IMG/VR virus record: IMGVR_UViG_3300042397_002455
Coordinates: 1-26,095 of that record
DNA length: 26,095 nucleotides
Reading direction: 5' to 3' (one strand)
DNA from: a virus
Shown here in pieces: positions 3,577 to 26,095 of this stretch. The notes below the pieces were generated by a model. It saw only the letters and a program-made list of their open reading frames with translations, searched no databases and was not told the DNA's origin. The position numbers and the translations under genes are program-made. The number at the start of each line of letters is the position of its first letter. The first letter of the stretch is position 1.

Positions 3577-5766
3577 TTATTGTGTTACTAAGTTACTTGG
3601 TAAAAGCGTATAAGGATTAAACTGGTCTCTTATATCGAAGGTTTTATTAGGAATTTGTTGCATAGGTGCATTATTATTATTTATTGACATGCTAGATGAA
3701 GGCTTTTTAATGAGCTCTCTCATTAAAAACACTAGTTCTTCTAACTTGTCCACTTGTCTTATAGAAGCATCTTTTATTGTAGCATTGTCCTTAACTAGTC
3801 CCTGAGTTATACCTGTCATTAAATTATCTATAGCTCCTCCTGTTTTCATCCCAAGGACCTCATCTTTTGTATTAAAACGGTAAACGTTATTACCTTTTAA
3901 TAGGAAATCTTGTAATTCCTCTCCAACTATATTAGTATTTGTATAATTAGCTCCTATAATTTTAGCATTTTCGTCACTAATGATGATGTCAGCCATTTTT
4001 CTACCTAAAAAATCACCAGCAGCTGTACCTACTATACTTGCCATAAATCCAAGATATGGTGATAAAGGCGCTAACACCCCCGTTAAAAGGGAAGCTCCCC
4101 CAACTAGCCCTCCTAGAAGTGCGCCGCCTCCTAAAGATCCTAAAGCACCGCCCCATGAATCAGCAATTTTATTACCCACTCTTAACTGATACTCATCCAA
4201 AGAGATCTTCTTTTCGTTATACAGATTTTCTTGTTCTTTGTTGTATAAATACGCACTCCCTGCTTCTATTAGTTGAGCAAGAAAAGGAATCTTACCTACA
4301 AACTTAACTAACGCGGAAATACCTCGGCCTGTAGCAGTTATAGCTTTGAAAACTTTTCCTAGCTTTGATAATTGCTCTGTTATTCCTAACGCTTTAGTTT
4401 TTGTAGTTTTTAATAAATCAGCACCCCAATCTAATACTTTACTACCTGAGGATGGATTAGACAGGTTTTTAATAACACTCTTAGGTACGTCCTTCTCACC
4501 TATAAAAGTACTACCTTTTTTATACCATCTTGTACCATCTTTTTTTACACCGGATGTAAACTCTTTTTGCTTTGCTATGGTTCTTGCTTCACCTCTATTA
4601 ACTGTAGGTGCTGCTTTTGAAGAAGGTGGTGGCTTTGGCTTGGCGTCTGGCAATACCTTTGCTGCAACTTTAGTAAGTTTTTGTGCTATTGCTACATCAC
4701 CCGCTACTCCACTAGCTTCAAAAGATTTAGCTATAACATCTATTGATCCTTGAATCACCCTACCCAGAGCAAAAGCAACTTTTTGAGCTAAATTAAGCTG
4801 AGTACCTTCGTCTATATTAAATATATTGTCCCAAAAAGTAAGAAATTTATCTTTTGTTTTTCCGTCTTTATCTAATGCAGAATTCCATAAATTATCAAAC
4901 CAAGAATTAAATTTACCTGCGGACCTTGACTTAGACTCCTCATCAGTTAAGAATGACCCTATCATATCATCCCACCATTTTGCTATAATTCCTTTATTAT
5001 CCTTATCTCTACTAAATAAAGAATTCCATAAACCATCCCACATATTATAAAGTTTTTGCTTACCTTCATCGCCGAAAAGGTAGGTTAATGTATCACTCCA
5101 CCAGTTTTTTACCTTATCTTTCCATTCTTCAGGTAATAGTTTCCATAATAACGCTCCAAGACCTGCAACGCCTGCAATCTTCTTTAAAGTGTCTATCAGG
5201 CTTCCTTCAGCATCTTTTTTTATAGAGACTTTATCTTTTATTGCTCCACTCACTTTAAAGGGTTCGGTCGTTGTTTTAATAGGCGTTAAATCTTTCAATC
5301 TCTTAGCTTCAGGACCTTCCTTAAATGCTCCTACCTGTAAAACCTTCCCTATAATAGTCGCTATCTCTTTAAATCTATTTTTTTCTGATGGAGATAATTC
5401 GCTAAATATACTACGCTTTTCTTTTTCTTTCGTTAATGATTTTTCATCAACCGGTTGATTTTTCACGTTCTTTCTACTACTAAAGGATGTCACTCCCTCT
5501 TTCGTTTTAGTTTCTTTTACCTCTTCTTTTTTATATTCTCTTTTTGCTTCTTTACTATCGCTAAAACTCCCTACTTTTAAAGTCCTGCCAATAATAGTAG
5601 CAGATTCTATTAATTTTTTTTGTTCAGATGTTGATAGAGTATCTACTTCTCTATTTTCATCCTTAATTACAGATTGCGATACTCCTTTAGGATCGGTCAT
5701 TGCTCTCAAAGAGCTCATGACACGTGTTACGATCCCAAGGGGTTCTAATGCTTCTTTATCTGCCAC
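3577..5766 (-). CDS. Putative tail tape measure protein
   Basis: A 729-residue protein starting with GTG at 5766-5764. Residues 1-190 are highly charged and contain an internal duplication: 44-76 and 124-156 share 18 of 33 residues, including ATIIG and EAKR. Residues 223-316 contain five aromatic-led units of 20-25 residues, e.g. WDGLWNSLF at 243 and FDNLWNSAL at 290. Residues 539-588 are a glycine-rich hydrophobic stretch typical of tape measures, which are ejected and interact with membranes. It is the longest gene of the minus-strand tail block outside the sheath and lies just after two gp26/gp51-like genes. AATAAATA plus 5 bp precedes the GTG and contains the stop codon of the upstream gene. 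The role would be to set tail length inside the tube. T4 gp29 is 590 residues, so a somewhat longer tail would be expected. Sequence identity to gp29 is not evident to me. Confidence 0.72.
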   Translation of the reverse strand: MADKEALEPLGIVTRVMSSLRAMTDPKGVSQSVIKDENREVDTLSTSEQKKLIESATIIGRTLKVGSFSDSKEAKREYKKEEVKETKTKEGVTSFSSRKNVKNQPVDEKSLTKEKEKRSIFSELSPSEKNRFKEIATIIGKVLQVGAFKEGPEAKRLKDLTPIKTTTEPFKVSGAIKDKVSIKKDAEGSLIDTLKKIAGVAGLGALLWKLLPEEWKDKVKNWWSDTLTYLFGDEGKQKLYNMWDGLWNSLFSRDKDNKGIIAKWWDDMIGSFLTDEESKSRSAGKFNSWFDNLWNSALDKDGKTKDKFLTFWDNIFNIDEGTQLNLAQKVAFALGRVIQGSIDVIAKSFEASGVAGDVAIAQKLTKVAAKVLPDAKPKPPPSSKAAPTVNRGEARTIAKQKEFTSGVKKDGTRWYKKGSTFIGEKDVPKSVIKNLSNPSSGSKVLDWGADLLKTTKTKALGITEQLSKLGKVFKAITATGRGISALVKFVGKIPFLAQLIEAGSAYLYNKEQENLYNEKKISLDEYQLRVGNKIADSWGGALGSLGGGALLGGLVGGASLLTGVLAPLSPYLGFMASIVGTAAGDFLGRKMADIIISDENAKIIGANYTNTNIVGEELQDFLLKGNNVYRFNTKDEVLGMKTGGAIDNLMTGITQGLVKDNATIKDASIRQVDKLEELVFLMRELIKKPSSSMSINNNNAPMQQIPNKTFDIRDQFNPYTLLPSNLVTQ

Positions 5767-5771
5767 TAATA

Positions 5772-5779
5772 TATTTATT
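5772..5779 (-). promoter_or_regulatory. T4-type late promoter octamer before the tape measure gene
   Basis: AATAAATA on the minus strand, then 5 bp (TATTA) and the GTG start at 5766. The stop codon of the upstream gene (5775-5777) lies inside the octamer. The arrangement selects this GTG as the start codon. Confidence 0.55.
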
Positions 5780-6509
5780 CAGCAGACAAAAAACTCGCGT
5801 CTATGGAGAGCTTCGTACCGTCAGGAAAGGTAAACAATCCCTGTTCGTATTCCTTATACCGGGCTATGTACTCTAAAATATCGTTGTTGAGCTTAAGAGG
5901 TAAGTTTTCAATAATATTTTTTCTGTCATAGATTCCTAATTGATTCATTTTTAGTAAACTATCATCAATTTCGACTGCATCTATAAATTTAATAAGCTCG
6001 TATGTCAATAAAATATTGAGTGAGTTGCCTATCTTCTTATCATCTACGCTAGATTTATTGAACTCTAATATACTCTTTTCTGTTACCTTTAAATCTTCTT
6101 CGAGTGAAGGTATTGCCGCAGTTATAGTTATGTTTTTATATTTGAATTTCTTTGTTAACTCAAAATCAAAGATAAACTCTGGCAAACTATTTAAATTATA
6201 TTCTGCATCGTTAACCTTAATTAACGGTGATATACTCTGCTTTCTTAAATCTACTAAAATTTTATTTCTATCATATAAAGTAAAGTCTACAGGTTCAGAA
6301 CTATTCTCTAAGATTATATCACTAAACACTTTATACATGCTTATACCTCCCTCAACGCCATCTAGTAACGACTTAACAACATCTTTATGCTGCTTAACGG
6401 AAAAGGCTTTAAATCTAATACTTTTATTTAAAGATGGTATATGTACTGCGAAGCAGTCTTTTTCATTAAGTTGTTTTAACTCATCAATAAAAGATTTAAT
6501 ATCACTCAT
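5775..6509 (-). CDS. Putative gp26/gp51-like baseplate hub or tail assembly protein
   Basis: A 244-residue protein. The N-terminus has the pattern of the T4 gp26-type family: AVHIPSLNKSIRFKAFSVKQ followed by helices and a RNKILVDLRKQSI segment. The C-terminal third includes LGIYDRKNIIENLPLKL, matched in the upstream neighbour by LGIDDRELILSNIPNAV, so the two genes look like distant paralogs. In T4, gp26 and gp51 act in hub assembly, and family members sit next to the tape measure. This gene lies directly before the tape-measure gene, fitting that role. The start at ATG 6509 is preceded by AGTAAATA plus 5 bp, overlapping the stop codon of the neighbour. I see no slippery sequence suggesting a frameshifted chaperone pair. 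The exact role (hub subunit or assembly helper) is inference. Confidence 0.55.
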   Translation of the reverse strand: MSDIKSFIDELKQLNEKDCFAVHIPSLNKSIRFKAFSVKQHKDVVKSLLDGVEGGISMYKVFSDIILENSSEPVDFTLYDRNKILVDLRKQSISPLIKVNDAEYNLNSLPEFIFDFELTKKFKYKNITITAAIPSLEEDLKVTEKSILEFNKSSVDDKKIGNSLNILLTYELIKFIDAVEIDDSLLKMNQLGIYDRKNIIENLPLKLNNDILEYIARYKEYEQGLFTFPDGTKLSIDASFLSAE

Positions 6510-6514
6510 TATGA

Positions 6515-6522
6515 TATTTACT
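6515..6522 (-). promoter_or_regulatory. Variant late promoter octamer before the 244-residue gene
   Basis: AGTAAATA on the minus strand, then 5 bp (TCATA) and ATG 6509. The TAA stop of the upstream gene is inside it. It departs from the NATAAATA consensus at one conserved position. Confidence 0.45.
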
Positions 6523-7339
6523 CAATGTTTTTACTTTTCAACTTATCTTCTTTTCTTGACGTTTCTTTTTTATATATATTTAAAATTACTCTAGAATCTC
6601 TAGGTGTTAGGTTAAAAAAGTCTTTGGCGGTAAATCCAAGCGAGCCTGTAAAAATATACAACATATCAAAAAAATTAGATAGTCCTGATGAATATATGCT
6701 AAGAATAAAAGAAATTATACCGTTAGATAATACATTAAGATTTATTTCCTCTATATTAAAACTATCATTTCTTTCTATAACAATTAAATTGTTTAATTTA
6801 ATAGATAGCTCGTTAATATAATCTTTTATTAACGTAAATACAGCATTGGGTATATTAGATAATATTAATTCTCTATCATCTATGCCTAAGGTGTTAAATT
6901 TTACTGATTGACCAGATACCTTAATACTTTTAATTACACTTAAATATATATCATTTAAATTTTCAAAGTATAATAAATTAGGTAACCCTAACTTTATTTC
7001 AAAATTATTAAAATTGTAAGTTTTGTCATAATCACTTTCGTGTAGATCAATTTTTTCTAAAATATTCTCTATGCTAAAATTTATAGATCGGCCGCTTTCA
7101 TCGTTAAAGAAGATCTCCGGTTCAATATATACCATTCTCGTTAACAAAAGAGCATAAAATTTATCTAAAATACTTAATTCTTTAAACCCTTTTAAAATAG
7201 TAGACTCAAAAAAAGCATTCAACCCTTCAAGATCGCTGTTTTCGCAAAATTTTAAAATAGTAAAAAAATCTTTGTTTTTTAATTCTGGCAATCTTATATA
7301 GGAACCGCTTGGTAACCTTGTCTTTATACTAAACTCCAT
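6518..7339 (-). CDS. Putative gp26/gp51-like baseplate assembly protein (paralog of neighbour)
   Basis: A 273-residue protein starting MEFSIKTRLPSGSYIRLPEL, followed by NKDFFTILKFCEN and, near residues 58-70, LDKFYALLLTRMV. This order (LPSG, LPEL, then a short acidic helix and an LxxLL-R segment) resembles the T4 base plate protein family to which gp26/gp51 belong. The C-terminus is Ile/Leu/Phe-rich, then strongly basic (KKETSRKEDKLKSKNIE). Its start lies inside the end of the tube-like gene (11-bp overlap), so translation is probably coupled and no separate promoter octamer is present. The shared LGI-DR-NIP segment with the next gene suggests an old duplication. It probably helps assemble the hub or chaperones the tape measure. 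It is very AT-rich and divergent, so the call is tentative. Confidence 0.5.
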   Translation of the reverse strand: MEFSIKTRLPSGSYIRLPELKNKDFFTILKFCENSDLEGLNAFFESTILKGFKELSILDKFYALLLTRMVYIEPEIFFNDESGRSINFSIENILEKIDLHESDYDKTYNFNNFEIKLGLPNLLYFENLNDIYLSVIKSIKVSGQSVKFNTLGIDDRELILSNIPNAVFTLIKDYINELSIKLNNLIVIERNDSFNIEEINLNVLSNGIISFILSIYSSGLSNFFDMLYIFTGSLGFTAKDFFNLTPRDSRVILNIYKKETSRKEDKLKSKNIE

Positions 7340-8075
7340 TGTTAATAGGTATGTTGTTCTTATCTATGGTAATATACTTCGTAAATGCAAATGAAACTGT
7401 CTTATTCATATCATTATATCCAAGATCACCATAGCTTAAAGAATCACCCTCTAGCTGAAAAGGTACTACATCATAAAATTCGTATATTTTTCTTATACGA
7501 GGCTGTGGCATGCCTTTACTAAAAACATCTCTATAAGTAGAATAATCTCTACTATATAAAACAAGCTGTATATTACACTTTAAATCCTCTGGATCATTAG
7601 GCCCTAACTCTATTAAACCTTTGTATGAATTAGCAATAATCCAGGGTCTAAAAAAGTAATCAAAAATATCGATATTAGTCTCGAGGAAGGTTATATCTAA
7701 TTTGTTAGACCCACCATAACCTCCTCTGTTACCAGCATAAGGTACTGATAGAAATCCACCCGCTCCTTCTATTTCTGTATTGTTAATATTAAATGTATCA
7801 CTTGGCAGTGCGACATTTTGTGCTAAAAAACAACCAAAATTACCGTATGGATCTGTTACCTCGTCTAAGCATTTTGTATTGACAGGCCAATGGCTATTAG
7901 ATACTGTTTCATAATCATGAATTACCTTATCAATATTTTTGCCAATCTGAGTTAAAGAACCTTGATTTCTTGGATATATAAAAATACTCCATAAAAATTT
8001 AAGCGGTATATCATAACGCCAATCGTTATGAAGCTTTAACCTGCGGTAAAACGGTCCGTTATCAAACTCTGCCAC
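7329..8075 (-). CDS. Tail tube-like protein (gp19-family paralog)
   Basis: A 248-residue protein with a GTG start at 8075-8073. Tube-fold features are concentrated in the C-terminal two thirds: LDITFLETNIDIFDYFFRPW, a strand NIQLVLYSRDYSTYRD, then the RKIYEFYDVVPFQLEGDSL segment and a final strand VSFAFTKYITID. The same order (strand, aromatic helix, strand, IYEF/GAS segment, final strand ending in Y) is seen in tube proteins. It follows the major tube gene by 11 bp, with AATAAATA and a 5-bp spacer before the GTG. It may form a specialised ring at the baseplate or tail end. The alternative is a baseplate protein with a tube fold such as a gp54-like one. The family is moderately supported; the specific role is unknown. 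Confidence 0.6.
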   Translation of the reverse strand: MAEFDNGPFYRRLKLHNDWRYDIPLKFLWSIFIYPRNQGSLTQIGKNIDKVIHDYETVSNSHWPVNTKCLDEVTDPYGNFGCFLAQNVALPSDTFNINNTEIEGAGGFLSVPYAGNRGGYGGSNKLDITFLETNIDIFDYFFRPWIIANSYKGLIELGPNDPEDLKCNIQLVLYSRDYSTYRDVFSKGMPQPRIRKIYEFYDVVPFQLEGDSLSYGDLGYNDMNKTVSFAFTKYITIDKNNIPINNGV

Positions 8076-8080
8076 TTAAT

Positions 8081-8088
8081 TATTTATT
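8081..8088 (-). promoter_or_regulatory. T4-type late promoter octamer before the second tube-like gene
   Basis: AATAAATA on the minus strand, then 5 bp (ATTAA) and the GTG start at 8075. It overlaps the stop codon of the tube gene (8087-8089), shifted by two bases from the usual phase. Confidence 0.55.
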
Positions 8089-8638
8089 AAGCTGTACGTG
8101 GATCAATATAGTAGTGGTAGGCAATAGTTGCAGTAACCTCTACTGTTTGACCAGTACCAGAAGCAATTGAATAGGCAATATCATTTATATTTCTTACTGA
8201 AGCACCTATTAACTTAAAGGTGCCGTTTTCAATTGGGTCTAGAGACTTGTTTAGTTGAACAAGAGTAATAAAATAATCATCATCTGGTGTGCCGTAGCCG
8301 CCTATTGAAGTGCTATCATCAAACAATCCTCTTGATGCAGTTTCAAAATAAGTACGAATTCTACTAGCAGCATCAAGGTAGAATGTTAAGCTGTAACCCT
8401 CTGAGCCTGGGTAAGTTGCATTACCCGGAACGTTAAAGTTAAGACCCATATAAGGTACAGGAACGTTTGTAATAGCTCTTCCAGGTAAGTTAGCAGCTTT
8501 TGCATATACTAACTCAGACTCAGGCATAGAACCCGCGCCTGGGAGATTCATACTTTGCACTCTGAAGAGGAAGTCTCTTGAGAAGTCTCTATCAGCTGCG
8601 GTTCTATAAAAACTTTGAATTGTTTGATTTACTGCCAT
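8087..8638 (-). CDS. 19: Major tail tube protein
   Basis: A 183-residue protein if started at ATG 8638 (MAVNQTIQSFYRTAADRDFS), close to the 163 residues of T4 gp19. Characteristic segments are RDFLFRVQSM near the start, then AANLPGRAITNVPVPYMGLN, then YSLTFYLDAASRIRTYFET, then DPIENGTFKLIGASVRNIND, and a last strand VEVTATIAYHYYID. These match the order expected of gp19-type tube proteins, which stack as hexameric rings under the sheath and carry DNA. An in-frame upstream start at 8659 would add seven residues but would lie in the promoter/terminator gap. AATAAATA ends exactly 5 bp before ATG 8638, favouring that start. A strong terminator separates it from the sheath gene, so it is likely transcribed from its own late promoter at high level. 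Confidence 0.85.
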   Translation of the reverse strand: MAVNQTIQSFYRTAADRDFSRDFLFRVQSMNLPGAGSMPESELVYAKAANLPGRAITNVPVPYMGLNFNVPGNATYPGSEGYSLTFYLDAASRIRTYFETASRGLFDDSTSIGGYGTPDDDYFITLVQLNKSLDPIENGTFKLIGASVRNINDIAYSIASGTGQTVEVTATIAYHYYIDPRTA

Positions 8639-8643
8639 ATTAT

Positions 8644-8651
8644 TATTTATT
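8644..8651 (-). promoter_or_regulatory. T4-type late promoter octamer before the tube gene
   Basis: On the minus strand AATAAATA is followed by 5 bp (ATAAT) and the ATG of the tube gene at 8638. It lies just downstream of a strong terminator, so it is the only obvious source of tube mRNA. With T4 geometry the transcript would begin at or next to the start codon. Confidence 0.65.
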
Positions 8652-8658
8652 CTTTTCA

Positions 8659-8694
8659 AGCAAAAACCGCGGTATTTTGTACCGCGGTTTTGCT
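8659..8694 (-). terminator. Rho-independent terminator after the sheath gene
   Basis: An inverted repeat has arms around 8663-8674 and 8680-8691, 12 uninterrupted pairs with a GC-rich CCGCGG core and a 5-base loop. Three more pairs follow after one bulged A. On the minus strand the 3' arm runs into GGTTTTTG, giving a U tract. It sits 22 bp beyond the sheath stop codon and just upstream of the tube promoter, so it should end or weaken sheath transcripts. Confidence 0.85.
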
Positions 8695-8715
8695 AGGTTT
8701 ATTTTATCTGCTTAA

Positions 8716-11493
8716 TTAGCCTCCAACTAGTTCTTGGAAGTTAGTATCTGTTCTAGTTGCATAGAAGTTAACTAGAATAAATTCAGCAGTTCTAACTGGC
8801 TTGAGATATATATCAATTACAAGCTCGTTATTATCAATAACTTCTGGAGTATTGTTACGCTCGTCGCAAACGATAAGGTAATCATATAGACCATCATCAC
8901 CCTTAACTCTTTCGAAGAAAGGTGTAAGTGTGTTGAGTACTCTCGTTCTTGTGAATAGTGTATTGTTCTCGAATAAGAAGAACTTCATCACTTGCTTAGT
9001 TACCTTTTCAAGATATAAGAATGTTCTTCTTACATTAATTCTATCAAACGCGCTCGGCTTCTTAAGTAGGGTCTTTTGACCGAATAGTACTAGTCCTTGA
9101 TCAGGGAATCTAGTAATAGGGTTAAGATTTACTTTGTATAGCTCATCACGCTGTCTTTGGTTAGGAGCGAACGCTATGTCGATAGCATCTGTTACAATAC
9201 CCCTGTTAAACCCTGCAGGCGCGCCCCAAGGACCAACATCTGAATCAGTTGATGCAATCTTAGCTGCTACAAAGCCCGAAGAAGGTACATATACATAAAG
9301 ACCGCTATAATCATCGTACATTTTGAAGTAGTTAGCAAACACTGTAGCGTATGATGTATTAATACCCTCGAACTGATGTCTAAGCGCCCAGTAAACATCT
9401 AATGAGAAATTCTTAGTAGGGTTATCAAGGACTTTCGAATCCTTACCGACTACTAAAATCTGTCTGATTGGATCTGCTACAAAGAGTACATCACCTCTAC
9501 CACCATCCTTAAGAGGGCCGCAGAATGTTACGAATTGACTTGCAATCGTTGTATAGTAGTCTCTTGCTTTTGTTGCATCACCTGTTAGCTCGTTAGAAGT
9601 TCTAAGAGCATCTATTACAGAGCTGGTCTTAGTATCGTCAAAGTAGTTTGAATTAGTTGCACAAACTGTAGTCCAGATTGTACCTAAACCACCTTCTGCA
9701 ATTACATCAATATCAAATACTTCGTCATTGCGAATTCTATCAAGAGCTCTTGTTAACTTAGCTGGTAAGTTACCGATGTCTTTCTGCGTTAATTTAGCTT
9801 CACCATATGCACCTAGTGGGTATAGTGAATCTGCTTTAGTAGCTTGAGCTGTTATAGTTTGATACTCTGTGTAAGTACAACCTACGATATATGGAGCTGT
9901 ATTAGCATTTGCTGATAGGTAGTTAGCTAGTTGTGTAGTTATAACTCTTACTTTCTTCTTAGGTGTACCATCAGCATTAAGCTGAATACCGGTAAATTGA
10001 TCCGAGACATATGGATTAACTAAGATATCAACATTTCTTGAAGTATTTTCTACGTTTTCTAAGAAGAAGCTAATAGCTTGACCGCCGTTTTCGTTGTTAA
10101 TTTGTCTGCTATATCCAATAGATCCGTTATAACCCTCTTCAAGAAGATAATCTAATTGATTTACATCAGTGCCGAAAACAGACTGTCTTAGTTTAAATAC
10201 ACCTACGTTTAATGCATCATCAAATCCTCTTGTTGATGTATCATAACCTGTAATCTTCTCTTCCATTACCTGTGATACTGAGTTAACAGCAGGGTTATTT
10301 CCATATGCTGGAGTAGCTGTTAGAGCAAAGCCAAATCTGCTTGATGGTACGGTAACATAGTTAGTAAGACCTGTAGAAGCGGCTGATTGAGTTACTGTTT
10401 TAACATCTAGGATAGCGTCGTAGTTGCTAGCAGGGTTAATATTAGTGTTATCTGATATACCTACATAGTAGCCATTAAACTTACCATCAATTACTGTTTG
10501 ACCTTTATTAATAATGACAAGAGCTGCACCAGCGGTTGATTCTAAGCTGTTAAATGATGATAAAGCAGTAGATGACCACGCACTAAATGTAGTACCACTT
10601 ATATATTTGAGATATTGTTCTTCGGTAATGTTAAACTGTGTTGGTTGACCTAAGAAGTAAGTACCTTCATCAATATTGAGCTTATTAGTCACTCCTGATG
10701 TACCAGCTGGTGTCTGTCTTGTATTTGTATCAGCTACAAAAACTACTGGGGTTGTGTAACCTACTACAGCAGATCCGGTAACCGCGCTAGTAAATGTACT
10801 ACCTACACCTGTACCATATACCATTGAAATAGTATCACCTGTAGAAGTTATAGTTATATCAAAACCTAACGCACTCTGTGCTAAAGTGTTGGAGATAAGC
10901 TTAGCGAGATTTTCTACTGTCATTACTGACGATGAAACTGGCACCGTGTATGTAGAAGAGCTGCTTGACGATAGAAGAGCGTTAGCACCATATAGCGGAG
11001 CATTTTCGTTAATTGAGAAGTTAACTGTTTTCTGTGCAAGGTTTGGAAGCATGAAGCTAAATGCTGCACCAGAAAGTTGATTACTGAATCCCGATCCACT
11101 ATCACCGAAATTTAACTGAATGTCAAAACCATCAACTGTTGTTTGTGATGAAAGAGCTCCTACAACTACCGCTGGGTAGGCTAGTAATGAGTATGTGGAT
11201 CCGAATCCCTGACCAGAACCACCACCGTATGGAATTCTATTAACTTTAAGTCTTGCTGTAGAGTTAAGAGTTGATTTTACTGTGTGATAGAAATATCTTT
11301 CTGCTGCAGATTTAGGAGTTCCATATATAAGTTCAAATTCTGTAAGAGAAGAAATATCTACTACTTCGTCGATAGGTCCTTGATCAGCGTAACCGGTTAC
11401 ATAAACATTTGTACCGGCTGCGGATGGTACTCTTAAAGATAGATCTCTCTCTCTAATTTCAACACCTGGTGAATTAATTGTTCGCTTTGCCAT
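8716..11493 (-). CDS. 18: Tail sheath protein
   Basis: A 925-residue protein starting MAKRTINSPGVEIRERDLSL, the typical opening of gp18-type sheaths. The C-terminal ~160 residues carry the conserved sheath domain: GLVLFGQKTLLKKPSAFDRI, NVRRTFLYLEKVTKQV, a DYLIVCDERNNTP segment, and IDIYLKPVRTAEFILVNF, near the very end. The sheath surrounds the tube and contracts on infection. T4 gp18 has 659 residues; the extra length here lies mainly in a Ser/Thr/Ala-rich part at about residues 80-420, probably surface-exposed domains. An in-frame start at 11520 (MFRKAINKYMAKRT) exists, but the octamer CATAAATA lies 5 bp before ATG 11493 and within that extension, so the shorter start is preferred. A terminator follows the gene. 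Confidence 0.93.
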   Translation of the reverse strand: MAKRTINSPGVEIRERDLSLRVPSAAGTNVYVTGYADQGPIDEVVDISSLTEFELIYGTPKSAAERYFYHTVKSTLNSTARLKVNRIPYGGGSGQGFGSTYSLLAYPAVVVGALSSQTTVDGFDIQLNFGDSGSGFSNQLSGAAFSFMLPNLAQKTVNFSINENAPLYGANALLSSSSSSTYTVPVSSSVMTVENLAKLISNTLAQSALGFDITITSTGDTISMVYGTGVGSTFTSAVTGSAVVGYTTPVVFVADTNTRQTPAGTSGVTNKLNIDEGTYFLGQPTQFNITEEQYLKYISGTTFSAWSSTALSSFNSLESTAGAALVIINKGQTVIDGKFNGYYVGISDNTNINPASNYDAILDVKTVTQSAASTGLTNYVTVPSSRFGFALTATPAYGNNPAVNSVSQVMEEKITGYDTSTRGFDDALNVGVFKLRQSVFGTDVNQLDYLLEEGYNGSIGYSRQINNENGGQAISFFLENVENTSRNVDILVNPYVSDQFTGIQLNADGTPKKKVRVITTQLANYLSANANTAPYIVGCTYTEYQTITAQATKADSLYPLGAYGEAKLTQKDIGNLPAKLTRALDRIRNDEVFDIDVIAEGGLGTIWTTVCATNSNYFDDTKTSSVIDALRTSNELTGDATKARDYYTTIASQFVTFCGPLKDGGRGDVLFVADPIRQILVVGKDSKVLDNPTKNFSLDVYWALRHQFEGINTSYATVFANYFKMYDDYSGLYVYVPSSGFVAAKIASTDSDVGPWGAPAGFNRGIVTDAIDIAFAPNQRQRDELYKVNLNPITRFPDQGLVLFGQKTLLKKPSAFDRINVRRTFLYLEKVTKQVMKFFLFENNTLFTRTRVLNTLTPFFERVKGDDGLYDYLIVCDERNNTPEVIDNNELVIDIYLKPVRTAEFILVNFYATRTDTNFQELVGG

Positions 11494-11523: not shown

Positions 11524-12096
11524 TTAACTTAAAAGATCAGCGTGAAGCTGAGAATATACAAAAGTAAAAGAAGACTCTATTTCTCCGGACTCTCTATAAT
11601 TAAAATTTAGACCTCCTAAGTCAGTAGGAAAAGCTTTTGTATAGGTAAATTTAATACGCTCATTATCAAATTCATCTAAACCGTATATTGTTATATCAGT
11701 TTGATAGTCTTTAAATATATCGTTACTTATTAGATTGTCAGCATCAAACACACCCTCGTATTCATCGTGAAGTAGGTTTATCCATTTATATATAACCCAA
11801 TAGTTATTATACTCGTTATCAATAGTAAAGTTTACTGTTACAGGAGGGTAGGAATTTTTGCTATGAGTAGAATTATATAGGGTACTTCCAGAATATCTAA
11901 TTTCTAGAGCTGGTACAGTTATTGTAGGTACAACAACTCCATAAATAGAAAACTGCATTGTTTCTTGAATAATAGTAGAGCTAGCTCTTCCACTTTGCTT
12001 GTTTATTTTTTTAAGTGCCGTCGGCACTTGAAAAACAAGCTTAAACTTATCTACTCTAGATTTGTTTAGTATTGATTGTTGGTAGTGATTAGCCAT
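11524..12096 (-). CDS. Tail tube-like protein between terminase and sheath genes
   Basis: A 190-residue protein starting MANHYQQSILNKSRVDKFKL. Visible tube-fold features: FKLVFQVPTAL near the start, a VVVPTITVPALEIRYSGSTL segment, the pair VNFTIDNEYNNYWVIYKWIN, then DYQTDITIYGLDEFDNERIK, and a final strand SSFTFVYSQLH. The order of strands and the aromatic helix match those of the two tube-type genes downstream. Its ATG lies 8 bp inside the end of the terminase gene (ATGGCTAA), so the two are translationally coupled, and no late octamer precedes it. It could be a tail completion or neck-proximal tube-like ring protein, or a baseplate protein encoded away from its partners. Family membership is inferred by eye. 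Confidence 0.55.
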   Translation of the reverse strand: MANHYQQSILNKSRVDKFKLVFQVPTALKKINKQSGRASSTIIQETMQFSIYGVVVPTITVPALEIRYSGSTLYNSTHSKNSYPPVTVNFTIDNEYNNYWVIYKWINLLHDEYEGVFDADNLISNDIFKDYQTDITIYGLDEFDNERIKFTYTKAFPTDLGGLNFNYRESGEIESSFTFVYSQLHADLLS

Positions 12097-13796: not shown

Positions 13797-13804
13797 TATA
13801 AATA
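13797..13804 (+). promoter_or_regulatory. T4-type late promoter octamer in the divergent gap
   Basis: A perfect TATAAATA, then 5 bp (TATAT) and the ATG at 13810. The whole intergenic region between the divergent starts is 17 bp. With T4 spacing the transcript of the acidic protein would begin on or beside its start codon. No comparable octamer faces the terminase gene. Confidence 0.7.
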
Positions 13805-13809
13805 TATAT

Positions 13810-16162: not shown

Positions 16163-18613
16163 CTATAATGGCTGCAATTTAAGACCATACATAGGTCCAT
16201 TGTCTCGCTTTATCTTTAAAAACGTATCTACACCGTTAGTACTCAACATAGCTGGAGATATAGATAGACTGCTTAGACCTACTCTTAATACACTCTCATC
16301 AATACCTATAGCTATTTCTTGGGCTGAGAGTGTTTCAACTCTATGTCCTATAGCCATGCTTCTATAATGATAAGCTGTAGATCCAAATCCTACAACCGCG
16401 GTATCTCTATCAAACCCTTCACAACTTGGTCCTAGAGCAAATCTTGAAACTACACCTCCGGATTCTTTTAATTCTGACTGTGTGGTAGGATAACGCTCAT
16501 ATGAGAAAAGCTGCAAACCAGCTACTGGTCTATGTACAGGGTCTTTGTTTCCAGCATAAACATACAGCTGTAAATCAGAAGAAGAAATAGGAGCAAATGA
16601 AGCAAATTCCAATCCGCTTTTCATAATTGGCGGCAGCGTATAATTAACACCATTACTTGACCAAATACCGAACTTATTATTACGGAATGCTGGACTAATG
16701 TTGTTTACTATATATCCATTTAGATCCACAGAAGATAGTCCATTAGGTGGTGTTGTTAAACTGAAAGTACCATTCGTTATTCCCGGTCTATCCAAGAAAA
16801 ATTCTATGTTTGGGGTTGCGAATTTCTGGAGTCGAGATTCTTCTGTTCCTCTTTGTTGGCCTAACCGTATTATAACTTCAGTTGGCGAAGATCTGTATAT
16901 ATACCCGTCATATGATTGTTGTGAGTAATTTCGCGTTGAAGGTATGATTTCCCCGTTTGCTCCTCGTACCATACCATACTGTCTTTTTTCACTATCTGGC
17001 GTTAGTCCATTATAGTTAATAGCACTTAAGTCTCTAGAATCAGACAACAACACAATAACAGGAAGACTCTCGTAAAGAAACGGTAGTTTTGCTGATAACA
17101 AGGGAGTATTAGCTGTATTAAACACTAACTCACAACTATTACGCATAGATACGGTATTATAACCTCCTTTTGAACTTAAAGAAATAATTTGCGAGTCAGG
17201 AACTAATAGCGGATCTCCTGGTAGTCTTATAACCTCTGCTGTGTTTATTACACTGTTTGTAAAGGCTGGTACAAGACTTGCGCGTGTTGTAGTAGCTCCC
17301 AGCCAGTTATCTATTGAGAGATTAAACGGCTGTAATCTAAAATGCTTCGTTGCAGTTGCGGGTAGAGCTTGACCTGCAGGTATATCTGCATTAGATTGTG
17401 CTGTGCCCGTATCGTTTACTGAAATAATTTTTGCAGGAAACGATGCAGCTGTAAATCCTATCTTTCTTAAGGACTCGTTATCTATACCAGTAGGGGAGAC
17501 AGAAAAATATATTATTTTACCAACAGTTAGACTTGTATTGTAGCTACTTGTCCAAACTGCTAGGTAATTGCTATCACTTACTGGGTCGACTGTATAAGGC
17601 GGTGCTATCTGGTTTGCAGTTAAAGATGCTCCGTATGCAGCAACAATAGGCGCTGTTACTTCAGGTCCTCTAAATGCTTGTGTATGTTGTGTGATGCGCT
17701 GCGGCGTGTAAGTATAACCTCCGTTAATTGTTTGATATCCACCACCAGCGCCGTTTTGAATTAAGTGAAAGTGATCTGATCCATTAGTAAACTTAGGATG
17801 ACCGCCCTGTAGCGTTAATCCATGCACAAAGGAGCCTCTACCTACTGTAGTGAAGGGTGTACCAGGATCTTGTGGTTGAATTGATTCGATTTTTAACTCT
17901 GCAGCTACTCCTGAAATATTATGATCTGCTAATGGCTTCGTAACGAAGGTATTATTTATAAACTCCAAAGAGATACTTCCAGAGTTATACCCGCCGCCTC
18001 CTATAAACGATGTAATTGAAATTGGAGAGCCTCCAAAAGGCGTATAAGTAACACTAAGTCTATTAGTACTTGTACTCCAAATTCCTACAGCATCACCTTC
18101 TAAGAAACTGTTAGTTTGCGTTGCAGATAAATTTAAGACGCAATTAGTTCCTGGTGTAACAGCAACCATCGTCATTCGTCCTTCTCTTTGTAGATTAGCA
18201 GTTAGGCTGTTACCTATAGTAACAGATAGAACCTTACCTTGGTAAATTGTTTGTGGCTTAACCGTATTTAGGGTAGTAGCGAATACATTAGCTCCAGTAA
18301 GATTACTAACTACTGCTGAGCTCAATAATACATTATTTGTAGAAAGATAGTTAGTAACTGTAGCTAAATTAGTACCACCTGCAGCCCAAGATGCACTAGT
18401 AGCGCATACAGTCGTATAGACACTACTCCAATTAGCGCTATTAGAATTAGTTGTCGTGTAATTACTACTCCAATTAGCACTAGAAGCTTGAACGGTAGAG
18501 CAGAGCGATTGAAAATCAGATGTTCTCGGTACCTCTAAAGAAGTTCTAGCGCTGGCTAGTGTATCAGTTTTAAGAAATGTATCTATATGCGACTTAACTA
18601 TATAATCAGGCAT
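16163..18613 (-). CDS. Tail fibre protein with shared NW/YTT N-terminal module
   Basis: An 816-residue fibre protein starting MPDYIVKSHIDTFLKTDTLA. Residues about 35-80 carry the repeat motif SANWSS-YTT (14-residue units with Trp and Tyr in fixed positions). Residues about 45-99 are encoded by DNA nearly identical to part of the edge fibre gene at 24708-26095. The middle is beta-rich, Gly/Thr/Asn-rich and without catalytic motifs I recognise. Toward the C-terminus, SMAIGHRVETLSAQEIAIGI resembles a trimeric beta-roll repeat as found in other fibres, and the protein ends in KIKRDNGPMYGLKLQPL. It is the last gene of the fibre cassette and is convergent with the neck gene. The start is preceded by TATAAATA plus 5 bp. 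Receptor binding is inferred from composition and context; attachment through the N-terminal module is likely. Confidence 0.75.
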   Translation of the reverse strand: MPDYIVKSHIDTFLKTDTLASARTSLEVPRTSDFQSLCSTVQASSANWSSNYTTTNSNSANWSSVYTTVCATSASWAAGGTNLATVTNYLSTNNVLLSSAVVSNLTGANVFATTLNTVKPQTIYQGKVLSVTIGNSLTANLQREGRMTMVAVTPGTNCVLNLSATQTNSFLEGDAVGIWSTSTNRLSVTYTPFGGSPISITSFIGGGGYNSGSISLEFINNTFVTKPLADHNISGVAAELKIESIQPQDPGTPFTTVGRGSFVHGLTLQGGHPKFTNGSDHFHLIQNGAGGGYQTINGGYTYTPQRITQHTQAFRGPEVTAPIVAAYGASLTANQIAPPYTVDPVSDSNYLAVWTSSYNTSLTVGKIIYFSVSPTGIDNESLRKIGFTAASFPAKIISVNDTGTAQSNADIPAGQALPATATKHFRLQPFNLSIDNWLGATTTRASLVPAFTNSVINTAEVIRLPGDPLLVPDSQIISLSSKGGYNTVSMRNSCELVFNTANTPLLSAKLPFLYESLPVIVLLSDSRDLSAINYNGLTPDSEKRQYGMVRGANGEIIPSTRNYSQQSYDGYIYRSSPTEVIIRLGQQRGTEESRLQKFATPNIEFFLDRPGITNGTFSLTTPPNGLSSVDLNGYIVNNISPAFRNNKFGIWSSNGVNYTLPPIMKSGLEFASFAPISSSDLQLYVYAGNKDPVHRPVAGLQLFSYERYPTTQSELKESGGVVSRFALGPSCEGFDRDTAVVGFGSTAYHYRSMAIGHRVETLSAQEIAIGIDESVLRVGLSSLSISPAMLSTNGVDTFLKIKRDNGPMYGLKLQPL
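18315..18480 (-). repeat. 166-bp module shared with the edge fibre gene (copy 1)
   Basis: This stretch matches 25762-25927 with three mismatches by my reading, in the same orientation. It encodes residues of about 45-99 of the 816-residue fibre, including the NWSS/YTT motif and LSTNNVLLSSA. Here the 14-residue unit occurs only once or twice, compared with five or more copies in the other gene. Confidence 0.9.
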
Positions 18614-18618
18614 ATATT

Positions 18619-18626
18619 TATTTATA
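18619..18626 (-). promoter_or_regulatory. T4-type late promoter octamer before the 816-residue fibre gene
   Basis: TATAAATA on the minus strand, then 5 bp (AATAT) and the ATG at 18613. The stop codon of the upstream spike gene (18622-18624) is inside the octamer. Confidence 0.65.
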
Positions 18627-22658: not shown

Positions 22659-24692
22659 TTAAGAATTCTCTAACTCTTCTATTCGAGCTTTTAATTCTTG
22701 TATTGCTTTAATCATTGGAGCAATAAGTTCTGTGTAGCCAATAGAACGTACATCATCACCACCGTTAATGGTATGGTCTTGATATCCACCAAAATCAATT
22801 CCTTGTTGATCTAGTACAGTCTTTACCTCTTGTGCAATTAACCCGTGGTGGTAGCGGTTACGCTTTTTACTACCGTCATGGGTAATATTAGCAAGCTTAG
22901 ACGATTCTAACCACTGATCTAATTCAACGGTATATGCGTTGTATTCAGCAAGTTTCGTATTATAGTTACTTATCTCTTCTTCAGACGCGTTATCACCAAG
23001 TTTTGAAGGTTTATCTACACGTGTAGGAGCTTCTACGCGATAAGCCTCACGCATATCCCACTTATAGTCAACTGGGCGGAGAGAGTTTATGAAGTCTAGA
23101 CCTAACACTGTATCACGAATATCGGCTTTATCTCGCTCATCAGAGCGATCTTGTACAGCGCCATGTGCATATGTAGTTGTACCGAAACCGCCTAACTGTA
23201 CTTGTTTTGATCCGGTAACTTGAGCGTTGTATCCTAATCCAGTGCTTTCATCAGTAGATACAGAATTACTGCCTTGCAATGCTTGATCTCCAAGTGCAGT
23301 ATTTTTTGTACCAGATGTATTAAAATACAAAGAATTGCGGCCTACTCCAACATTATTACTACCGGTATTAAAATACAACGATTGGCCTCCAAGTGCAACA
23401 TTACTAATACCAGTTAGATTAGAATACAATGATCGAAATCCTACTGAAGTATTACTGCCACCAGATGTATTTCTATACAACGATTGAAATCCTAATGCAA
23501 CATTAGTAAAACCAGCTACATTATTAAACAATGAATTGACTCCTAATGCTACATTTTGATACCCAGTTGTATTATAGGGCAACACACCTGTTCCTAATGC
23601 AACATTTTGATACCCTGTTGTATTATTATATAACGCTTGGTCTCCAAGTGCAGTATTACTATAACCAGATGTATTACTAAACAACGATTGATATCCTAAT
23701 GCAACATTATTATTACCAGTTGTGTTAGCACTTAATGCATCGTTACCAACTGCAACATTATTATTACCAGTTGTATTATTACGTAACGCTTGACTTCCTA
23801 TCGCAACATTTTCAGCACCATTATTTCTAAACAACGATTGATATCCTAATGCAACATTATTAAAACCAGTTGTGTTAGCACTTAATGCATCGCTACCAAC
23901 TGCAACATTATTATAACCAATGTCATTATTACGTAACGCTTGACTTCCTAATGCAACATTACTAGAACCACCTGAGTTATTATACAATGCTTGATTTCCT
24001 AATGCAACATTACTAAAACCAACTATGTTACTAAACAACGATTGATATCCTAATGCAACATTACTAGAACCAGCTATGTTATTATACAATGATTGTAATC
24101 CTAATGCAACATTACTAGAACCAACTGAGTTATTATACAATGATTGTAATCCTAATGCAACATTATTAATACCAGTTGTGTTAGCTCTTAATGCATCGTT
24201 ACCAACTGCAACATTACTATCACCAGTTGTGTTAGCTCTTAATGCATCGTTACCAACTGCAACATTACTATCACCAGTTGTATTACTATACAACGATTGA
24301 TATCCTATCGCAACATTTTCAAAACCAGTTGTGTTACTACTCAATGCATCATTACCTACTGCAACATTATTAGTACCAGTTGTATTCGATAGCAATGCTT
24401 GGCTTCCTATCGCAACATTTTCATACCCAGATGTATTACTAAACAACGATTGAAATCCTAATGCAACATTATTAATACCAGTTGCATTATTACGTAACGA
24501 TTGATATCCTAATGCAACATTACTAGAACCAGATGTATTTCTAAACAACGATTGATATCCTAATGCAACATTATTATTACCAATTGTATTAGAAGCTAAG
24601 GCACTAAGGCCAATACTTAAATTGCTTGTAGTTCTGCCAAAGCTAAGGTTGCCGTTGACTACTAAGTCGTTATATAATGTATGTTGTCCCAT
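22659..24692 (-). CDS. Repetitive tail fibre with C-terminal S74 self-cleaving chaperone domain
   Basis: A 677-residue protein starting MGQHTLYNDLVVNGNL. About residues 23-475 consist of about 27 units of 17 residues with the consensus NVALGYQSL-xNTTGxx, as in trimeric YadA-head-like beta-rolls. The last ~160 residues are a Peptidase_S74 intramolecular chaperone: SDERDKADI (Ser517), FINSLRPVDYKWD, HHGLIAQEV, then a coiled-coil end IKAIQELKARIEELENS. In this family, three chaperone domains help trimer folding and are then cut off, with cleavage just before the conserved serine, here DR|SDERDK. The mature fibre would be about 516 residues. The gene starts 5 bp after GATAAATA and follows the edge fibre gene by 15 bp. 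Receptor binding would lie in the repeat shaft or its tip. Confidence 0.9.
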   Translation of the reverse strand: MGQHTLYNDLVVNGNLSFGRTTSNLSIGLSALASNTIGNNNVALGYQSLFRNTSGSSNVALGYQSLRNNATGINNVALGFQSLFSNTSGYENVAIGSQALLSNTTGTNNVAVGNDALSSNTTGFENVAIGYQSLYSNTTGDSNVAVGNDALRANTTGDSNVAVGNDALRANTTGINNVALGLQSLYNNSVGSSNVALGLQSLYNNIAGSSNVALGYQSLFSNIVGFSNVALGNQALYNNSGGSSNVALGSQALRNNDIGYNNVAVGSDALSANTTGFNNVALGYQSLFRNNGAENVAIGSQALRNNTTGNNNVAVGNDALSANTTGNNNVALGYQSLFSNTSGYSNTALGDQALYNNTTGYQNVALGTGVLPYNTTGYQNVALGVNSLFNNVAGFTNVALGFQSLYRNTSGGSNTSVGFRSLYSNLTGISNVALGGQSLYFNTGSNNVGVGRNSLYFNTSGTKNTALGDQALQGSNSVSTDESTGLGYNAQVTGSKQVQLGGFGTTTYAHGAVQDRSDERDKADIRDTVLGLDFINSLRPVDYKWDMREAYRVEAPTRVDKPSKLGDNASEEEISNYNTKLAEYNAYTVELDQWLESSKLANITHDGSKKRNRYHHGLIAQEVKTVLDQQGIDFGGYQDHTINGGDDVRSIGYTELIAPMIKAIQELKARIEELENS
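23270..24626 (-). repeat. About 27 tandem 51-bp repeats in the S74 fibre gene
   Basis: The coding repeat unit is 51 bp (17 residues; two units have 48 bp). Most copies have diverged at the DNA level, but 24172-24222 and 24223-24273 are identical, showing recent duplication. Sub-groups of copies with similar words (QSLF, QSLY, NDAL) alternate along the array, suggesting expansion by blocks. Confidence 0.9.
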
Positions 24693-24707: not shown

Positions 24708-26095
24708 TTAGTAAGCGTTTACGTCTGCATCTACTGTGAATGAACCAATCTTAAATGTAACGTTTGAAGTTGCTGGCACTGCTGCAAACGTATCATATGT
24801 AGCTACATTTATAGGCACATTAGAGCTTAAACTGTTTGTCGTTGCGTATCGCATTATATTTGTTTGGTCTAATCTAATAAGTTTTGAAGTTGTTGAACCA
24901 GCAGAAGAGTTAAATGTTATATTAGGTTGACCAAGATTACTATTCCAAGTAATTCCTTGGAAACCATGAGCTTCTCCTGTTGTATTTTCTGACCAATTAT
25001 ATGCAACACCAACGCCATTATGAAGATAATTCACCATTCTAAAATTTGTTGCAATTGAGGATATAGCTATACCAGCTGTTGTATTATATGCTATTAATGT
25101 CCAAATATCTGTATTAATTTGAGCACCAGTAGCACCCCCTGGATTAGCAGCACCTGCACCATTTAAAAATACTCCACAATATACATATGGAATTCTTGAT
25201 GTAACCTTTCCAGTACCTGTAATGTTAAACACCGGAGCTGCTACTGCTTGTATTAATCTTGAATCAATACCCAACACACCAGCTGCACAATTAAAGATTG
25301 TACCACTGGAATCATTTGTTAGATTAACAATAGAGCTACATTCAAAATTAACAATTGTTGTAGTATTACCACTAGGCATTGTCAATACACCTGTTGCACC
25401 TGTAGCCAATATGAAATCTGCATATCCTCTAATAGTAATCGGAACAGAATTTTGACTATATGAAAATGCTACAATACCTGATGCGATATTAACAGTTGTT
25501 CCATTTTCAAAATATAAATTACCTTTAAGGTTTAAATTAATCTGAGAAGAAATTGCATATGTTCCTGCTCTTACATAAACTAAATCACCAGTTGCTACAG
25601 AAGAATCAGCTATAGCAGCACTAAGTGTGCGATATGGTTTGAATGAATCATACTTACTAAATCCATTTCGCGTGTCGTTACCAACGCTTGCATCTACATA
25701 AATAGTCTTACCAGTAGGGTTATTTACATAAGATCTAGCAGAGAGTGTATTTAATATAGTAGCTGAGCTCAATAATACATTATTTGTAGAAAGATAGTTG
25801 GTTACTGTAGCTAAATTAGTACCACCTGCAGCCCAAGATGCACTAGTAGCGCATACAGTCGTATAGACACTACTCCAATTAGCGCTATTAGAATTAGTTG
25901 TCGTGTAATTATTACTCCAATTAGCACTATTAGAATTAGTTGTCGTGTAATTATTACTCCAATTAGCACTATTAGAATTAGTTGTCGTGTAATTATTACT
26001 CCAATTAGCACTATTAGAATTAGTTGTCGTGTAATTATTACTCCAATTAGCACTATTAGAATTAGTTGTCGTGTAATTATTACTCCAATTAGCAC
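24708..26095 (-). CDS. Tail fibre or spike with 14-residue NWSNNYTTT repeats, 5' end off the window
   Basis: The frame ending at stop 24708-24710 stays open to the right edge, so at least 461 codons are present and the true start lies outside. A TTG at 25772 could be taken as a start but is inside the continuous frame. From the edge the product has five or more 14-residue units (NWSNNYTTTNSNSA), then VYTTVCATSASWAAGGTNLA, LSTNNVLLSSA, and next KTIYVDASVGNDTRNG and PYRTLSAAIADSSVATGD, typical of the start of a right-handed beta-helix region. It ends in TFKIGSFTVDADVNAY. The shared module with the 816-residue fibre suggests a common attachment or shaft part with different receptor-binding parts. 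The catalytic state is unknown. Confidence 0.8.
   Translation of the reverse strand, partial: ANWSNNYTTTNSNSANWSNNYTTTNSNSANWSNNYTTTNSNSANWSNNYTTTNSNSANWSNNYTTTNSNSANWSSVYTTVCATSASWAAGGTNLATVTNYLSTNNVLLSSATILNTLSARSYVNNPTGKTIYVDASVGNDTRNGFSKYDSFKPYRTLSAAIADSSVATGDLVYVRAGTYAISSQINLNLKGNLYFENGTTVNIASGIVAFSYSQNSVPITIRGYADFILATGATGVLTMPSGNTTTIVNFECSSIVNLTNDSSGTIFNCAAGVLGIDSRLIQAVAAPVFNITGTGKVTSRIPYVYCGVFLNGAGAANPGGATGAQINTDIWTLIAYNTTAGIAISSIATNFRMVNYLHNGVGVAYNWSENTTGEAHGFQGITWNSNLGQPNITFNSSAGSTTSKLIRLDQTNIMRYATTNSLSSNVPINVATYDTFAAVPATSNVTFKIGSFTVDADVNAY
25762..25927 (-). repeat. 166-bp module shared with the 816-residue fibre gene (copy 2)
   Basis: Same orientation and nearly identical to 18315-18480 (three mismatches by my reading). 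It includes the first part of the 42-bp array and the segment coding for VYTTVCATSASWAAGGTNLA. After LLSSA the two genes diverge completely. Confidence 0.9.
25886..26095 (-). repeat. 42-bp tandem repeats, at least five copies, continuing past the edge
   Basis: The word TTGTCGTGT on the plus strand recurs at 25898, 25940, 25982, 26024 and 26066, exactly 42 bp apart. The copies are identical except at one site in the first one. Each encodes 14 residues (NWSNNYTTTNSNSA), so the array keeps the fibre reading frame. Confidence 0.95.

Follow-up and report, generated by a model that had tools for sequence, protein, structure and literature searches.

An N-terminal module, single in most relatives, is duplicated in tandem in the tape-measure-like protein of an uncultured phage

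The tape-measure-like protein encoded on a 26,095-base virus fragment (IMG/VR record IMGVR_UViG_3300042397_002455, a single metagenome contig; this whole stretch of DNA is referred to below as the window) contains a rare, old tandem duplication of an N-terminal module that is normally present once. Judged from the sequence, a module of approximately 80 residues is duplicated in tandem in this protein, and each copy contains a short, well-matched element. The features concerned, all on the minus strand, are the following:

3577..5766, minus strand: tape-measure-like protein, 729 aa, GTG start (open reading frame downstream of a tube-like gene and two gp26/gp51-like genes)
5536..5745, minus strand: module copy 1 (outer), residues 8–77 (relatives' profile, 54.0 bits, i-E 5e-18)
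5155..5493, minus strand: module copy 2 (inner), residues 92–204, which keeps the PEAxRLxDLTP...AIKDK tail (same type of profile match, 78.5 bits, i-E 1.3e-25)
5539..5637, minus strand: element of copy 1, residues 44–76, LSTSEQKKLIESATIIGRTLKVGSFSDSKEAKR (self-comparison; predicted helix 46–63)
5299..5397, minus strand: element of copy 2, residues 124–156, LSPSEKNRFKEIATIIGKVLQVGAFKEGPEAKR (self-comparison; predicted helix 126–143)
5398..5538, minus strand: charged linker between the elements, residues 77–123 (low confidence or disordered in the model), which holds the head part of copy 2

A first-pass annotation of the window had reported that residues 44–76 and 124–156 match at 18 of 33 positions at an offset of exactly 80 residues, and our self-comparison reproduces this repeat, without gaps. 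Its location likewise holds, but its start lies at 5299 rather than one base away at 5298, and its extent had been understated: The two matches of a profile built from single-copy relatives (residues 8–77 and 92–204) imply that the duplicated unit also includes sequence ahead of the motif. This profile represents the first 125 residues of 18 relatives, with five of 23 proteins left out (the window protein itself, L041, which looks chimeric, L002, L033, and L030). The two elements have a BLOSUM62 score of 86 over 33 residues, and the best gapless segment (35–86 vs 115–166) scores 90; the best segments in 150 full shuffles had a mean score of 38.0 (sd 4.8, maximum 56), and those in 150 local shuffles, which keep the regional composition, a mean of 40.5 (maximum 61). 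At the DNA level, 65 of the 99 bases agree between the two elements and 34 differ. The next best internal repeat of the protein, a tryptophan-rich pair (residues 238–268 vs 285–315, score 58), belongs to a separate feature:

4822..5055, minus strand: Trp-rich repeat region, residues 238–315 (self-comparison)

We call the product of 3577..5766 a tape-measure protein on the basis of its position. The 729-residue protein is preceded by two tube-like proteins (phrog_45 matches) and two phrog_150 proteins, it is, as expected for a tape measure, long, apparently largely helical (as judged with residues 1–240 folded), and encoded beside tube and chaperone genes, and it ends in a domain that is common to its relatives at the same gene position. 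The window protein matched no tape-measure family in Pfam, PHROG, or NCBIfam, nor anything among 50,697 phage records, and the IMG/VR scans returned no near-identical tape measure; one of 15 relatives' N-termini does match phrog_1535, a tape-measure family (E 0.0067). Matches of the window protein to DUF6922 (E 0.009) and phrog_5247 (E 0.0002) were set aside as chance, with no single stretch passing and none of the 15 relatives' N-termini matching either family. Among isolated phages, no related tape measure was found for the window, L002, or L143, and L044, L130, and L081 gave low-identity matches only (24–38% among the matches listed), which need not be homology; a search for sheath relatives in genome contigs gave 17 pattern matches, none of which was confirmed. 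The neighboring features are:

3580..4368, minus strand: conserved domain at the C-terminus of the tape measure, residues 467–729 (alignment of 11 sequences)
5775..6509, minus strand: gp26/gp51-like protein, 244 aa, T4_baseplate/phrog_150 (PHROG E 3.8e-5; PF12322 E 2.5e-4, below the family cut-off)
6518..7339, minus strand: gp26/gp51-like protein, 273 aa (phrog_150 E 9.5e-7; PF12322 E 2.4e-5, 24.5 bits, at the family cut-off)

Both of the latter proteins have profile similarity to the gp26/gp51 family (PF12322) and are putative chaperones. In hhalign comparisons the 273-residue protein reaches 92% to T4 gp26 and 70% to gp51, and the 244-residue protein 17% to T4 gp26. The tape measure itself falls outside the gp29 family by the same approach (0.9% probability against the T4 gp29 profile).

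Several further observations concern the surrounding genes. Three genes around the sheath resemble tail-tube type proteins (7329–8075, 8087–8659, and 11524–12096); two match phrog_45, and the third aligns with T4 gp54 at 82%. Neck genes were not identified in the window. Counting the first start in each open reading frame, 36 of 45 distinct tape-measure genes begin with GTG (ATG in 8, TTG in 1), vs 5 of 88 starts for the two genes upstream; a weak start may limit synthesis of the tape measure, which is needed in few copies. The window tape measure has its GTG at 5764–5766, and no Shine-Dalgarno-like sequence was seen before it. Three copies of the sequence ATAAATATAT are present in the window, where 0.73 would be expected; they lie at 5769–5778 (minus), 13798–13807 (plus), and 18612–18621 (minus), each directly at a gene start. 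A fibre-like gene (22659–24692) contains a 51-base tandem array of approximately 24 copies with 72% match, and the part of its product C-terminal to the array looks like an intramolecular chaperone domain. Finally, a 42-base tandem repeat (5.4 copies, 99% match) occupies 25871–26095 and runs off the right end of the contig.

Scans of IMG/VR that used the tape measure, sheath proteins, and alignments as queries yielded 181 loci, many of which overlap on shared contigs. Sixteen N-termini from the more distant clade supplied a second profile, and in many of these N-termini the first profile finds the same place. By either profile, the module is present in 105 open reading frames, corresponding to 45 distinct proteins as judged by their first 110 residues; absence of the motif from relatives, one of the two outcomes that the first-pass annotation had named together as fatal to its proposal, therefore does not hold. 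Two copies as a general design, on the other hand, are not supported: Of these 45 N-termini, 41 have one copy, at or near the N-terminus, and only 4, including that of the window, have two. In all four two-copy proteins the inner copy is the better fit to the family (bits for outer/inner copy: window 54.0/78.5, L002 24/25, L088 27/34, L172 21/54). Direct comparisons of the paired elements, using test segments picked by eye, gave no shuffle reaching the observed score in 2000 for L002 and for L088 or in 5000 for L172. Support is weakest for the outer copy of L172, at 21 bits including the head, and one shuffle of that pair scored 51 vs 56 observed.

Two simple accounts of copy number could be rejected. 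One is that there is a copy for each of two chaperones; it fails in that two chaperone-like genes also stand ahead of the tape measure at loci with a single copy (e.g., L044, L013, and L004). Nor is the module a unit of tail length, as proteins with more copies are not correspondingly longer: With fragments at contig ends left out, one-copy proteins span 505–1591 aa and two-copy proteins 628–729 aa. Two of the relatives encode very long tape measures with one module each (L168, 13595–18232, 1545 aa; L182, 13573–18348, 1591 aa), and they would be expected to have tails of two to three times the length of those of the other relatives. In the other two-copy proteins, the linkers between modules hold short repeats of their own, of approximately 47 residues in L002 (91–190), 24 in L088 (80–130), and 5 in L172 (65–130), and judging by these repeats the leashes seem to grow by slippage. 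One open reading frame at the tape-measure position, L041 9415–9873, starts like a tape measure and runs, as seen by eye, into aminotransferase-like sequence; it is likely a chimeric contig end.

Across 15 aligned rows, the module has the consensus L-[ST]-S-x-E-x-x-R-L-K-x-x-A-x-I-x-G-K-x-L-x-I-G-x-[FY], followed by P-E-A-x-R-L-x-D-L-T-P. At the 17 strongly conserved positions (read off by hand), the conserved residue is retained 16 times in the inner copy of the window and 10 times in the outer copy, there as L, E, A, G, L, G, F, E, A, and R; the outer copy keeps the helix and G-x-F part, and has lost the tail residues P, L, D, T, and P. The earlier description of short helical segments, present twice per chain, agrees with our AlphaFold model of window residues 1–240, which places helices at 46–63 and 126–143. 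Each element is predicted to be one isolated 18-residue helix between disordered linkers, and neither this model nor that of the single-copy relative L044 gives any sign of a globular domain. For L044, the helix (47–64) has a pLDDT in the 80s within a whole-model value of 61.0; for the window, the whole model stands at 54.0, with linkers below 50. The relatives in the fold alignment covered the head and copy 2, and copy 1 was folded without aligned relatives; the predicted helix of copy 1 therefore comes from its own sequence alone. Conservation along one face of the helix was not significant (P 0.39), nor was its hydrophobic moment (P 0.09, 0.15, and 0.31).

By its codon use, the window duplication is old. 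The 18 identical residues use the same codon at 8 positions, vs 7.4 expected under independent draws of codons from window usage, so that silent sites look randomized while the shared residues have been retained. Consistent with this, NG86 estimates for the window copies are dN 0.34 and dS 1.18, from a small sample; those for L002 (dN 0.89, dS 1.70) and L088 (dN 0.57, dS 0.39) come from segments too short to use. In a tree with few columns that includes 35 of the 41 single-copy modules (L011, L080, L102, L114, L128, and L130 left out), copy 1 of the window falls with L018, L019, and L013, and copy 2 lies outside that group, both placements being weak. As the tree does not join the window copies as sisters, a related phage may have been the source of copy 1; a sister placement is nevertheless compatible with the data (p-AU 0.26). 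With test groups chosen after seeing the data, a single clade of the four outer copies was rejected (p 0.0009), as was one that takes in both modules of every two-copy protein, eight in all (p 4e-5). On this basis we count at least two independent duplication events; we do not claim four, because L002 and L088 could share one duplication.

Indirect evidence on the partner of the module comes from a comparison of the window with its close relative L004, which differs from it in one block:

3690..7221, minus strand: block differing from L004 (DNA and protein identity; edges approximate, 60-base steps)

The block contains most of the gp51-like gene, the gp26-like gene, and the tape measure minus its last approximately 35 codons, and its counterpart in L004 lies at 5057–10536. 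Outside it, the two phages are nearly the same (TerL 99%, both tube-like proteins 95%, sheath 91%, and, downstream, the protein at the cap position 99% over the 207 residues compared). DNA identity drops at approximately 7221, where the gp51-like gene has run for some 40 codons, and is back to 85–100% at approximately 3690, in the last approximately 35 codons of the tape measure. Inside the block, the gp51-like proteins are 51% and the gp26-like proteins 54% identical, and the L004 tape measure is foreign except for its end. The affinities of the two versions also differ: The chaperone-like proteins of the window are 65–70% identical to those of L044 and L013 (68–70% for L044), and those of L004 are 61–63% identical to those of L036 and L022. 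Foreign blocks with different affinities between flanks of 90–99% identity suggest that the two chaperone-like genes were swapped between phages as one block with almost the entire tape measure, while the tail end of the tape measure stayed with the baseplate side; such a pair was clear once among the 22 loci compared.

This apparent exchange fits an arrangement in which the C-terminus meets the baseplate and the body and N-terminus work with the chaperones, and it favors docking to chaperones or during assembly over binding to the hub. The hub, which the first-pass annotation had proposed alongside the chaperones as a possible partner of the repeat, is argued against in that only the last approximately 35 codons stay with the baseplate-side gene and the N-terminal part is exchanged. 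Binding of chaperones by the motif gains indirect support from the joint exchange, and the motif may be regarded as a candidate contact; the block holds nearly the whole tape measure, so the N-terminus is not singled out. We rank the chaperone pair as the likeliest partner, the neck second, and the hub as unlikely.

The reading that we tentatively prefer, at slightly less than even confidence, is that the module is a docking helix on a disordered leash, most likely held by the gp26/gp51-like pair, and that the second copy adds sites or reach. That the module docks, that the chaperones are its partner, and what the second copy contributes are inferred rather than observed. The module is laid out as a short head, a flexible stretch, the predicted 18-residue helix, and then G-x-F and P-E-A-x-R-L-x-D-L-T-P, and was duplicated in tandem within the lineage of the window phage. 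The inner copy (92–204) retains the standard form and leads directly into the remainder of the chain, and the outer copy (8–77) has kept the helix and G-x-F with the tail residues gone. The docking helix would be used during tail assembly, held on its disordered leash by the gp26/gp51-like chaperone pair before tube growth, with the second copy adding binding sites or reach; copy 2 could also be the sole working copy. Chaperone or hub-assembly activity of gp26 and gp51 is described for T4 only (PMC3004832), and binding to the tape measure is reported for lambda gpG (PMC4493119). T4 resembles the window in having the gp26/gp51-like genes ahead of the tape measure. The module, however, is absent from T4 gp29 (best 3.0 bits, residues 405–484), which is disordered in the T4 tail map (PMC3004832), and a match in cyanophages S-SM2 and S-SKS1 was rejected, with nothing above 3.0 bits.

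Docking at the neck is possible, if on balance unlikely. The module would then be the head-proximal end of the tape measure and contact the tail terminator or completion protein, and the duplication would extend that end. In 80alpha, three tape-measure chains have their N-termini bound to the tail completion protein and their C-termini at the baseplate (PMC11661146), and for T4, gp29 is named as a possible binding partner of the capping protein gp3 (PMC3004832); the position of the module at or near the N-terminus of single-copy relatives points the same way. The likeness to 80alpha lies in a defined N-terminal docking segment, a role that would be shared by the window; the 80alpha segment, however, is a neck-bound beta-strand and helix at residues 1–37 (PMC11661146), whereas the predicted helix of the window lies at approximately 46–63. 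In addition, if the N-terminus is exchanged with the chaperone-like genes against a backbone that is 90–99% identical, the neck must tolerate a foreign end, although this is not decisive, the core motif being conserved in both the window and L004.

A neutral change in length, in which the disordered leash tolerates the duplication, with copy 2 as the working copy and copy 1 as a tail-lengthening spacer, strikes us as improbable. Duplications within tape measures are certainly known. Belcaid et al. 2011 (PMC3271669) describe tape measures with internal repeats of 11-aa Trp/Phe units, and relatives of the window likewise have Trp-marked repeats in the middle of the protein; those units are short, numerous, and tied to tail length, whereas the window doubles one N-terminal module of approximately 80 residues whose copy number does not follow protein length. 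A TP901-1 mutant with a duplicated N-terminal tape-measure region kept its titre with tails approximately 30% longer, and deletions within residues 31–154 abolish infectivity (PMC5099701). That mutant shares with the window an extra N-terminal copy, but it is engineered, in a siphophage with no sequence relation shown, whereas the window duplication is natural and old. Internal duplication in tape measures is already known, and what we describe, the natural doubling of one N-terminal module, is fairly ordinary; among the titles and abstract openings listed in searches of open-licence papers, none concerned a duplicated N-terminal tape-measure module for T4-related phages. A neutral change would also suit the poorer fit of the outer copy in all four two-copy proteins and the linker repeats of three of them. 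The window outer copy, however, keeps its 10 of 17 conserved positions despite saturated synonymous sites, which is not free drift, and length is independent of copy number.

Far less credible is escape from a host factor or defence that recognizes the tape measure by its N-terminal region. Binding to tape measures is reported for SNIPE, and escape mutants of phage Bas14 map to residues 100–150 of its tape measure, including a duplication of 144–150 (PMC13190303), but that work concerns siphophages, no link between such a defence and the window phage or its host is apparent, and a conserved duplicated motif would be an odd route out of recognition. An equally long shot is that the duplication turns the threefold end of the tape measure pseudo-sixfold: Three chains (reported for T4 and 80alpha) with two modules each would give six docking helices, where one module each would give three, one per chain; the six would match one per subunit of a hexameric tube, terminator, or chaperone ring, and, if so, at least two lineages would have solved the three-to-six mismatch alike, each with its own linker length. 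Chance resemblance or an assembly artefact, for which one could cite the single metagenome contig and the lack of a near-identical tape measure, is close to negligible, being already refuted by the shuffle and profile statistics, with an intact reading frame through the repeat and more base differences between the copies (34 of 99) than assembly error would be expected to leave.

Returning to chaperone docking as the preferred reading, the places along the tape measure at which chaperones and end-caps bind are poorly known, above all in T4-related phages, and an N-terminal motif that is conserved in 45 distinct uncultured-phage proteins, belongs to no database family, and is doubled in 4 of them offers a small candidate docking site. 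As a lead, the exchanged block may be of more use than the duplication: It suggests that the gp26/gp51-like pair belongs with the tape measure, of which just the final approximately 35 residues match the baseplate side.
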